Source of the DNA: Allorhodopirellula heiligendammensis
Lineage (GTDB): Bacteria > Planctomycetota > Planctomycetia > Pirellulales > Pirellulaceae
Assembly (NCBI RefSeq): GCF_007860105.1
Contig: NZ_SJPU01000002.1
Span: 571,256 to 635,255 of the forward strand
Reading direction: 5' to 3'
DNA length: 64,000 nucleotides
In this document: piece after piece, positions 1 through 48,874 of the stretch
How the letters are laid out: each line of letters begins with the position of its first letter
Numbering within the stretch: position 1 is the first letter of the stretch
Notes under the pieces: model-generated
The model's database searches: none
Told to the model about the DNA's origin: nothing
Seen by the model: the letters and a program-made list of their open reading frames with translations, nothing else
Translations under genes and position numbers: made by a program

Positions 1-566
1 GCCTTGCATTTCTTTGCTCCCCCTGCAACTCCGATGACGCGGCAGCCTTTGAGCTTAGCCAGTTGGCCCACGACAGAGCCGACCGCTCCCGTTGCCGCAG
101 CAACGACGACTGTCTCACCAGGTTGGGGCTGACCGATGTCGAGCAGGCCCATGTACGCGGTGAAGCCGGGCATTCCCAGTACACCCAGCGATCGCGACGG
201 GTGATCCAGTTGCTGTCCCAGCGGTATCAGACCCTTTCCATCAGATACCGCATAGTCTTGCCAACCGGTGTTGGCCAATACCCAATCGCCTTCCGCATAG
301 TTGGGGTCCCTCGACTGCTCGACGCGACAGACGGCGCCGCCAACCATCACCTCGCCTACCTCAACAGGAGGAGCGTACGAAGGTGCGTCGCTCATGCGGC
401 CACGCATGTAGGGATCCAGAGAAAGGTAAACCGTTCGTAATAAAACTTGCCCATCCGCTGGGGTCGGCAATTCACTGTTTTCCAAACGAAAATTGCTTGG
501 CGTGGGAGCTCCATGGGGACGGGAATTCAACAGGACTTGGCGATTGGTATCACGAGCTTGTGGCAT
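1..566 (-). CDS. NADP-dependent oxidoreductase, MDR family (CurA/2-alkenal reductase-like), C-terminus beyond window
   Basis: Reading the minus strand from an ATG at 566 gives an open frame to the window edge (188 codons), so the C-terminal half is missing. The N-terminal part carries the early landmarks of the zinc-independent medium-chain reductases related to YfmJ/CurA: LLNSRPHGAPTPSNF near the start, LSLDPYMRGRM around residue 50, GMPGFTAYMGL around 130, and the nucleotide-binding segment ETVVVAAATGAVGSVVGQLA followed by KGCRVIGVAGG. Family members reduce alpha,beta-unsaturated carbonyls with NADPH in the cytosol; substrate here is inferred only at that level. It sits alone, 243 bases beyond the stop of the mannitol dehydrogenase-like gene on the same strand. 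No promoter was recognised upstream. Confidence 0.88.
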   Translation of the reverse strand, partial: MPQARDTNRQVLLNSRPHGAPTPSNFRLENSELPTPADGQVLLRTVYLSLDPYMRGRMSDAPSYAPPVEVGEVMVGGAVCRVEQSRDPNYAEGDWVLANTGWQDYAVSDGKGLIPLGQQLDHPSRSLGVLGMPGFTAYMGLLDIGQPQPGETVVVAAATGAVGSVVGQLAKLKGCRVIGVAGGAKKCK

Positions 567-13291: not shown

Positions 13292-13880
13292 TTTGGCCTT
13301 CGAGAGGATGGTGAAGTATTGGTCTGACGACCGAGGTACTACGGTAATAATCCATCCGGGTTTCCCGCGATAGGACACCTCTCCCAGAATCCACCGACAC
13401 GCACTCTCGCGGGAGGTCCGCCCCTGCCAACTGGATTTGCGGAGCAAATGGGACCACCGTGAATCGGTCGCAGTCAAGAGATGCTCTGACCACACCAAAG
13501 CGAACAAAAATTGTCCGCATCGCCGTTGACAACAAGTGTTCCATCTCAATCGATTCGTGTTGAACTGCGTTGCGTCTTCGATCAGTTCCATCGCTCACAG
13601 CGGGTTGGTTGATCAGATCCCACGCCGGATGATGGCCCAGCCGCAGCGACGTTCCTCCGAACGCCTTTTCTTCATCGGATAGTGTGATTCTCCCTCTGAG
13701 GGTGACACTCAATCGCACCGCCTCGGTTGAGTTGCGCAAGCCAAGACAGCGCTTTCTATCGTGGTGGCAGTGGCCGCGAGTTTTTGCATGTAGCGTCACA
13801 TCTCTCGTCCGCTTCCTAGGTAGCTGCTCGATTTACCTCTCGCGTACCAAGTGCACCTATGCTCCAGCACCCCCTTTTGT
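13292..13880. other. Upstream region of efpL, 589 bp, no supported gene, with a stray element end
   Basis: Open frames cover this stretch on the minus strand (one runs through to 13799 in a frame shadowing efpL), but none shows a recognisable motif. TCCATCCGGGTTT at about 13351 matches 13 bases of the terminal repeat of the inverted-repeat element found at 13881 and may be a relic end. The efpL promoter should lie here but was not identified. Confidence 0.4.
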
Positions 13881-14204
13881 GGTCCATCCGGGATTATCGT
13901 GGGTAGATCCAGCATGTTGGATTTTGGAGGTATGGCGGTGGCGTCCGAATTGAAGGAGGCCGTAGCAGAAATAACGCTGAAGGCTGGCGCAGACGCCGCC
14001 AGCCCAAGGCACCTTTCGGGTCCAGTTCGACCAGGATATTGCTTGTAGAATCGCCCAGCGGCTGAGCGTACTTCCACCCCTTCCGCACGTGAAACCTGAT
14101 CGGTTGACATCAGCGTGACAAAATTTCGGACGCCACCGCCATGCCTTGAAAATCCCCCACACTTGGCTCACCGCGGCGAAACCCACGGTAAACCCGGATG
14201 GACC
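13881..14204. mobile_element. Inverted-repeat element copy A (324 bp) with probable 8-bp target duplication
   Basis: The left end is GGTCCATCCGGGATTATCG and the right end, reversed, is GGTCCATCCGGGTTTACCG; the inverted similarity continues inwards, both arms containing TATGGCGGTGGCGTCCGAA or CATGGCGGTGGCGTCCGAA. Between the arms are two smaller hairpins: GGCTGGCG/CGCCAGCC around 13983-14005, and a CCC/GGG-closed hairpin around AAGGCACCTTTC. The element is flanked by CCTTTTGT (13873-13880) and CCTTTTGC (14205-14212), 7 of 8 identical, as expected for a target-site duplication. No transposase frame fits inside, so it would be non-autonomous (MITE-like) or a mobile structured element. Related copies lie at 45848 and 48808. 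Confidence 0.75.
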
Positions 14205-14321
14205 CCTTTTGCTTTAGATCTACTCATCGTTAATAACCCTCTTGATTTCGCAGAGCGGGCTAGCCCAAACGCCACGGACGACCACCGAAATTGATGGAAT
14301 CCAATTTACGCTCGCCAAAGT

Positions 14322-45847: not shown

Positions 45848-46172
45848 GGTCCGTCCGGGTTTATCGTGGAAAAATCCAGCATGTTGAGCTTGTAAGGCAT
45901 CGCGGTGGCGTCCGAAATGAGCGATACCGTCTCAGAAGAAATGCTGACGGCGGACAAAGCCGCCGCCAGGTGAAGGCACCTTTCGGTTCACCCCGACCTA
46001 GATATTCCTCGGCAAGGTGCTTCCCAGCAGGGCTCGCTTCCGCTTCTCCTGGCGGCTTAATCCTACCACGGACACATCAGCATGAGAAAAACTCTCGGAC
46101 GCCACCGCCATGCCGTGATAATCCCCACACCTGGCTCACCGCTGCGAAACCCATGATAGACCCGGCTGGACT
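45848..46172. mobile_element. Inverted-repeat element copy B, abutting an ISAs1 transposase fragment
   Basis: The left end GGTCCGTCCGGGTTTATCG and right end (reversed) AGTCCAGCCGGGTCTATCA match the ends of the copy at 13881, as do the internal GGCGGTGGCGTCCGAAA on both arms and the AAGGCACCTTTCGG core at about 45975. The inner hairpin stems differ (here CTGACGGCGG/CCGCCGCCAG and GGTGAA/TTCACC instead of GGCTGGCG/CGCCAGCC and CCC/GGG), so the stems are kept while their sequence changed. Its right boundary coincides with the point where the ISAs1 transposase reading is cut. Flanking 8-mers ATTCTATT and ATGTTTTT do not form a convincing duplication. Confidence 0.7.
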
Positions 46173-48807: not shown

Positions 48808-48874
48808 GGTCCATCCGGGTTTAACTTGGGGAATCCAACATGCTGGATCTACCCACGATAATCCCGGATGGACC
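48808..48874. repeat. 67-bp palindromic solo end of the inverted-repeat element (copy C)
   Basis: GGTCCATCCGGGTTTAACTT at 48808 pairs with the reverse of the sequence ending at 48874 (GGATCTACCCACGATAATCC then CGGATGGACC), leaving about six bases in the centre. One arm is identical over about 30 bases to the left end of copy A (13881-13910), and the other resembles its right end. It is thus the two ends of the long element joined with the interior deleted. It borders the truncated IS5-type transposase. Confidence 0.75.

Follow-up and report, generated by a model that had tools for sequence, protein, structure and literature searches.

A miniature inverted-repeat transposable element of Allorhodopirellula heiligendammensis and the putative small-RNA gene carried by its lineage

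Analysis of a 64,000-nucleotide stretch of the genome of Allorhodopirellula heiligendammensis (the window; contig NZ_SJPU01000002.1, positions 571,256 to 635,255) revealed at positions 13881-14204 an element of 324 bp that is a miniature inverted-repeat transposable element (MITE), on the basis of its terminal repeats, the duplications flanking its copies, their number, the existence of homologous empty sites and the lack of a transposase by eye. We consider it quite probable that this MITE is mobilised in trans by ISL3 transposases and that its lineage carries a small-RNA gene on the minus strand, whose product is a putative trans-acting regulator. In the mechanism proposed here, an ISL3-family DDE transposase acting in trans would recognise the terminal repeats, and the element would be inserted at an AT-rich site, duplicating 8 bp of the target. 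The core of the lineage would be a minus-strand small-RNA gene with a sigma70-type -10 box, a 59-nt fold and a terminator-like hairpin, which the MITEs would spread as cargo. The same putative gene adjoins IS3, IS110, IS21 and other transposase genes in several phyla. Beside IS3 and IS110 genes it mostly occupies the opposite strand, while AAA-ATPase genes are directly followed by it on their own strand. Its RNA may regulate mobile elements in trans via a conserved host partner. In the copy at 13881-14204 the RNA gene would have decayed, though the subfamily of this copy spread recently.

The element belongs to a near-identical subfamily of what is called here family A. It is flanked by CCTTTTGT (13873-13880) and CCTTTTGC (14205-14212), a target-site duplication identical at 7/8 positions, and its size, coordinates and flanks are those given in an earlier note on the window. 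The left terminal inverted repeat (GGTCCATCCGGGATTATCGTGGGT; 13881-13904, plus strand), which resembles ISL3 ends, and the right one (14181-14204, minus strand) form outer arms of 24 nt with 92% complementarity. Nested inside are the inner inverted repeats at 13919-13949 (plus strand) and 14125-14155 (minus strand), arms of 31 nt with 90% complementarity that covary between families. Here the earlier note had placed an inverted block of 19 bases; the block ATGGCGGTGGCGTCCGAA is indeed present exactly in both inner arms, and measures 18 bases within the longer arms. The same pair occurs again at 45899-45916/46094-46111, with one mismatch each, and the four matches obtained with up to three mismatches were equalled in none of 100 shuffles. 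The predicted single-strand folding energy was -158.7 kcal/mol (z -8.7) for the plus strand and -165.6 kcal/mol (z -9.7) for the minus strand, the nested arms being the main reason for these low values. Inside the 324 bp, no long open reading frame (ORF) was found, the longest listed having 109 amino acids, and inspection of the six frames by eye (no family search of these frames was made) revealed no transposase, as the earlier note had stated.

A search of the element's own genome (G000; a draft assembly of 7.18 Mb in 35 contigs, 97.6% complete) returned 93 aligned pieces. Ten other near-full copies, with identities from 98% to 72%, are similar over nearly the whole element, and the similarity is thus not limited to short blocks; one more copy is 99% identical and lacks the right end. 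Four copies are 98-100% identical, one of them truncated. Elements with paired ends measured 67, 79, 97, 313-325, 404 and 818 bp. Two relatives lie in the window itself (copies B and C of the earlier note), namely a second family-A copy of 325 bp at 45848-46172 (contig positions 617103-617427) and a fold-back derivative of 67 bp with both terminal repeats at 48808-48874, the flanks of which agree, in each case, at only 5/8 positions. Target duplications were assessed in 17 pairs of ends of G000, leaving out copies in which truncation has removed the second end and, where one end could be paired in several ways, the longer pairings. AT-rich 8-bp duplications agreeing at 7/8 or better were present in 8 of these 17 pairs, compared to none at eight outward shifts and 4 of 272 cross-copy pairs.

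Empty sites were found as well. Two copies (C1:1567841-1568154 and C1:1861697-1862019) are inserted within other elements, and in the same-genus genome G006 the homologues of both host elements read straight through. The empty site L234 has a single GAAAAATC, two of which are present at the occupied site, while L206 has a single ATTTATTT, the occupied site having ATTTATTT and ATATATTT. Both the unoccupied sites with one target copy and the duplications at other copies, which the earlier note had suggested looking for, were therefore observed.

The two host elements proved to be sister MITEs, families B and C, with ends GGTTCTTCTCGGAATTTAGTGGCA and GGCTCATCCGACGGAAGCGTGCGC, respectively; these match, at 24/24 bases, one end of different ISL3 elements, in G006 and in G000 itself. 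G006 contains 99 matching pieces, mostly of family C. Among 29 paired elements of families B and C, 18 had duplications at 7/8 or better, compared to none at eight outward shifts and 5 of 812 cross-copy pairs. The 8+8 flanking bases were 80% AT in family A and 74% in families B and C, against 49% and 45%, respectively, further out. The cores of A, B and C can be aligned. Two forms of 79 bp, which consist of little beyond both ends, have duplications of 8/8 and 7/8 at their own sites, and thus the core is not needed for movement. A coding remnant in the core was considered and rejected by eye: the reverse frames of A and C have PGE.E.SSA in common, and no frame holds over the B core.

The distribution of the ends pointed to a candidate mobiliser. 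The MITE end pattern, with up to three mismatches, was found in 67 of 241 genomes of the family, and its reversed control in 11 genomes with one match each, so that a few of the single matches are due to chance. Pairs of ends about 1.3 kb apart (four in the end-pattern listing and a fifth upon retrieving the sequence) correspond to 1298-bp ISL3-family insertion sequences (ISs) in related genomes, the ends of which match those of the MITE. The domains PF01610, PF14690 and PF13542 were present in the proteins of all five elements. Duplications of 8/8 flank two of the five (L130 and L140), and a sixth cognate IS, in G011, a genome of the same genus as the window, has a duplication of 7/8. By eye, the MITE left end is similar over its first 32-35 bp to the 3' end of the ISs. 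The ends, the duplication length and the empty sites make movement by an ISL3 transposase in trans a well-supported prediction. The ISL3 transposases at G011 L155 and G023 L140 are 96% identical across two genera of one family, which suggests a recent transfer between these genera.

Two other mobilisers were rejected. G000 has ten ISL3-like matches, together with a 36-amino-acid piece at 56% identity; its own ISL3 elements differ from family A in their ends (GGCTCATCCGACTAAAGCGT), and cross-action is possible. The IS110-like pieces in the copies of 404 and 818 bp look, by eye, like nested insertions at one core site. This site (CCCAGC^AGAGC) holds IS110-like elements or remnants in three MITE copies (by eye): L013/L017 (G000:C1:1333433-1334250), L014/L016 (G000:C1:2349555-2349958) and L094 (G006:C3:190396-191800). 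Inverted CCAAGGAACTT/AAGTTCCTTGAG lie near the ends of one such insertion, and the MITE core may be a preferred IS110 target. At another locus, L080 (G000:C1:505591-506934), an ORF like a REP-associated tyrosine transposase (by eye) is located near a MITE end and an IS3-like gene.

Regarding the core, one alternative is that this is an ordinary ISL3-type MITE with an inert relic or filler inside, the folds of which reflect correction of a DNA palindrome and not an RNA. Long palindromes can become homogenised without any RNA role, the 79-bp forms have moved without a core, and the subfamily that spread most recently has a decayed one. In an alignment of 17 sequences, the 29 pairs of the inner stem were formed in 89.5% of cells and ten had double changes; covariation was 0.322, compared to 0.168 in shuffled and at most 0.104 in slid alignments, and the number of double-changed pairs alone was not exceptional, being reached in 81 of 500 shuffles. 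When flanks were swapped between copies, the own flank paired at a mean of 22.4 of 28 positions against 20.6, and 3 of 44 copies exceeded the swapped 99th percentile; many of the matches outside MITEs lack a left arm, and related copies have arms in common, so that this comparison supports the inner stem as such only weakly. The inert-core explanation fares worse with the 59-nt fold described below, which occurs outside MITEs and ISL3 elements and covaries at free positions, and with the positioned -10 box and terminator-like hairpins that accompany it. We hold it to be improbable.

A sequence model of the core built from the 17 sequences (R1) matched 66 of the 241 genomes of the family and 28 of 68 genera, with up to 18 candidates per genome scored. 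Elements with A-, B- or C-like ends were found in other genera, no duplication being found at the B-like one. The layout obtained from 53 aligned core matches consists of P1, TAT[CT]CCT, P2 (6 bp, varied), TT, 3 bp, a 4-nt loop, 3 bp, AGAG, P2', TCCG[CT]TTC and P1'. This corresponds to a fold of 59 nt comprising helix P1, a conserved internal loop (GAAACGGA/AAGGGAUA), P2, a CUCU/AA loop, P3 and a GNRA-like loop. In alignment A3 (29 rows), 92.1% of cells were paired and 10 of 14 pairs had double changes, with a covariation of 0.562 compared to 0.199 for shuffled and at most 0.105 for slid alignments, in rows chosen after a pairing script. This script, which seeks pairing, scanned the 53 core matches; the 30 that fitted one layout were kept and one was dropped for its length. 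Among the 23 matches omitted are both copies in the window, each of the three B copies and four of the five C copies; one of the 23, G079b, did fit the layout, and alignment A4 (28 rows) omits one more row. Since this choice of rows favours pairing, a scan with a pattern in which P1 and P2 are free is the fairer test. Over a collection of named species it returned at least 115 stretches, plus one in viral contigs. Among the 94 distinct copies listed, the free pairs of P1 were formed in 86, 86, 91 and 92, and those of P2 in 74, 88, 89, 87 and 94. The sibling copies thus carry a conserved secondary structure with compensatory changes, and the copy at 13881-14204 does not.

Strand counts favour the minus strand, with 20 G-U against 4 A-C cells when the terminal pair 17-44 is left out, in rows that are related and not independent. 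On this strand, a TATAAT-like box starts exactly 13 nt 5' of P1 in 40 of the 99 copies listed, the next best offset reaching 8. By a permissive test, 64 of the 91 copies listed have a hairpin with a T-run behind it in the 125 nt downstream, and in 59 of these it starts 11-32 nt after P1. As predicted signals, these are arranged in the layout of a free-standing small-RNA gene. A box, GGATTTTTTGAGGCATGGCTCNGGTGTTCAA, is conserved 5' of the RNA gene in Planctomycetota (for example at L305, L306 and L273); it has no pairing partner in IS loci and is doubled in the MITEs as the inner inverted repeat, and it is possibly a regulator site.

The two larger copies in the window differ in the state of this gene. 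At 45978-46054 (minus strand), inside the 325-bp copy, the structured model R2 found the motif with 65.3 bits (E 3.4e-14). TAGGAT is located at the -10 place (46060-46065, minus strand), 13 nt 5' of P1 by the position rule taken from relatives, and TTCTCA (46083-46088, minus strand) precedes it with a 17-nt spacer, both by eye. The element at 13881-14204 appears to hold a decayed copy at 14006-14087 (minus strand), which is still scored at 54 bits by R1. By eye against the layout of relatives, TTGTCA (14116-14121, minus strand) would occupy the place of the -35 box and the -10 box is not intact; hairpin h1 (13982-14004) lies where relatives have the terminator-like stem, 3' of the minus-strand RNA. 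This hairpin is misaligned between families in alignment A1, and its pairing rests on separate folds. None of the four near-identical copies was among the 11 R2 matches of G000 (best 12 candidates scored), and in the subfamily that spread most recently the RNA seems to have decayed, so that it would not be needed in cis for movement. The earlier note's suggestion of a MITE, a mobile structured RNA or both thus holds for the lineage, in the siblings of which the fold covaries; the copy on which it was made no longer matches R2. A further partial R2 match of 13.2 bits at window positions 54-84 (minus strand) is very weak and probably due to chance.

Outside the MITEs, R2 gave matches in 29 of 392 genomes sampled from the whole phylum and in 25 of 267 genera, G000 included. 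By eye, the upstream ORF reads as a transposase in six of 23 R1-matched loci, the others having no clear one. IS110-type ORFs lie upstream at L306, L273 and L270, where the motif follows the stop codon by 28, 30 and 53 nt (genomes G091, G064 and G101, respectively), and at L309 (125 nt); an IS3-type integrase at L301 (gap of 9 nt) and IstA at L310 (94 nt) complete the six, and an IstB-like ORF starts after the core in L310 and L267. The transposases upstream at L306, L301 and L310 were confirmed by Pfam. In G226 the core lies within a repeated 1554-bp unit with an IS110-like ORF. At five places of this genome (L296-L300) the 1554-bp element adjoins a GC-rich hairpin (CTTCTCCCCC...GGGGGAGAAG), four of them within a 1.8-kb unit with ends GGGACGTCGATT, by eye an apparent further MITE family. 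An Acido-Lenti-1 RNA (L304:341-386) and a group II intron (L341:4694-6519) are also present in loci that hold the motif.

Among the 118 copies listed, a transposase-type ORF (E<=1e-5 to 15 representatives, a set that raises the count) was located within 600 nt of the motif in 70; for copies with enough room the figure was 65 of 109, compared to 0 of 109 at a distance of 2.0-2.6 kb. An AAA ATPase lies upstream on the same strand in 22, an IS3-type gene on the opposite strand in 28 and an IS110 gene on the opposite strand in 8, the nearest IS110-type genes being opposite in 8/8. IS21, IS256, TniA-like and ISL3 genes accompany one to a few copies each, in mixed orientation. Pfam assigned all ten proteins checked to rve/rve_3, Transposase_mut, AAA_22, DEDD_Tnp_IS110 with Transposase_20, IstB and the like. 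The record titles among the matches listed name Planctomycetota, Bacteroidota, Desulfobulbaceae, Alphaproteobacteria, Calditrichota, Nitrospinota, Verrucomicrobia, Terriglobia, Magnetococcales, Neomarinimicrobiota and others, and one record with the motif is from Rhodopirellula solitaria; many are metagenome bins, in which repeats can be misplaced. The complete genome of Desulfosarcina alkanivorans accounts for four listed records, and there the RNA is located in a repeated unit, about 270 bp away from the unit end. Plasmids of Acidisarcina polymorpha and Tunicatimonas pelagia matched 46-52 nt of the motif at 83-89%; in the latter, the 3.6 kb shown list no transposase gene, in a gene table without RNA genes.

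These neighbours bear on two other explanations. The position of the motif shortly after IS110-type stop codons in G091, G064 and G101, its presence in the repeated unit of G226 and the IS110-like fragments inside some MITE copies (by eye) would agree with a core that is a captured bridge RNA (seekRNA) of IS110/IS1111 elements, the element being their transposase-free relative. The motif, however, also accompanies unrelated DDE families, the strand counts place the RNA on the strand opposite the transposase gene, whereas transcription of the seekRNA region presumably starts at the tnp promoter according to the accessible part of PMC11187229, and the same part describes ISEc21 as lacking a target duplication, in contrast to the 8 bp found here. 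This explanation was dropped on the strand counts and DDE neighbours, and we regard it as very improbable. The other explanation makes the RNA a freeloading gene of no benefit to transposons, a selfish cassette moving between unrelated elements. The same RNA does occur beside IS3, IS110, IS21, IS256 and AAA-ATPase genes, MITEs of three end types contain it as well, and 32 of the 118 copies listed lie within 300 nt of a sequence end, as repeats often do in assemblies. Its fairly fixed position and, for IS3 and IS110 genes, its fairly fixed orientation suggest instead a working relation with its neighbours. We judge a selfish passenger rather unlikely.

Several observations weigh against the reading of an ISL3-mobilised MITE lineage with a minus-strand regulatory RNA. 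As regards mobility, a good duplication is missing in 9 of the 17 family-A pairs, the flanks of three of the five cognate ISs agree only at 3-4/8, and a cognate IS was not found in the draft genome G000, where full-length ISL3 elements are at most 33% identical and have other ends; a cognate copy may be missing from the assembly. As regards the RNA, R2 finds nothing in 13881-14204 at E<=1, and the changes in the inner stem mostly separate whole families and thus represent few events. The terminal pair 17-44 favours the plus strand (10 A-C cells on the minus strand). Among the 49 copies with a -10 box within one base of its place, a -35 box at 16-18 nt was present in only 13, compared to 2 for a control hexamer, and the terminator test also succeeded on the other side in 45 of 91 copies. 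As regards association, 48 of the 118 copies listed have no transposase-type ORF nearby, the near count is raised because the representatives were mostly taken from motif neighbours (nine from the 118 copies themselves), and the plasmid motif of A. polymorpha lies 22 nt after an IS110 gene on the same strand.

The wider proposal, to which we give an even chance, is that one structured small-RNA gene has come to travel with five or more unrelated transposase families in many phyla and, in Planctomycetota, has its own transposon with three borrowed ISL3 end types; it would be a transferable module for mobile-element life, acting on a host factor that distant bacteria have in common. As a single fold accompanies unrelated transposases, a target common to the hosts, either a protein or the translation machinery, would be more probable than pairing to the individual transposase mRNAs. 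The usual view is that every transposon has a regulation of its own. A single conserved RNA, apparently under its own promoter and found in distant phyla next to elements of the IS3, IS110, IS21, IS256 and AAA-ATPase types, would point to a common host target and give a direct handle for finding it. The combination of one core with three end types also suggests a way in which a non-autonomous element could outlive a transposase lineage, by matching new ends.

The earlier note had seen in the element the strongest candidate for an undescribed system. MITEs of the ISL3 type are already known, and the term therefore fits the RNA rather than the MITE. For the RNA, no Rfam 15 family matched on the motif at the gathering threshold in the window or in sets of 15 and 12 loci, with weak sub-threshold matches only, and no description of the family was found in the literature searches made or in these Rfam scans, save two motifs comparable by name and description only. 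These are 'Transposase-resistance' (several phyla) and 'Rhodopirellula-1' (Proteobacteria and Planctomycetes), which Table 1 in the accessible part of PMC2864571 gives without Rfam accession, as probably cis-regulatory and of ambiguous RNA status; judged by these descriptions, the motif studied here might be one of them.

Compared to MITEs derived from ISs (PMC10969869 and the accessible part of PMC5896051), the element is alike in being short, in its terminal inverted repeats, target duplication and many copies, in lacking a transposase and in having an autonomous relative with the same ends; it is unlike them in a core common to three end types and in an RNA gene that is found beyond MITEs too. 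In themselves, small RNAs carried by MITEs are no novelty, since the same part of PMC5896051 connects MITEs of Coxiella with the evolution of small RNAs. ISL3-family ISs (PF01610) have the end sequence and the AT-rich 8-bp duplication in common with the element, which differs in having no transposase and in sharing only about the first 24-35 bp (by eye). The seekRNA or bridge RNA of IS110/IS1111, as presented in the accessible part of PMC11187229, is likewise a structured RNA from a noncoding part of a transposable element. The RNA described here would differ in lying on the other strand, in its other transposase families and in the target duplication. The antisense RNA of IS10 is encoded against the transposase gene within the element, and in this it is alike. 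It is named in the accessible part of PMC5006887. Unlike in IS10, one fold occurs here with unrelated transposases and mostly 3' of the gene, which makes pairing with each message unlikely to be the whole story.
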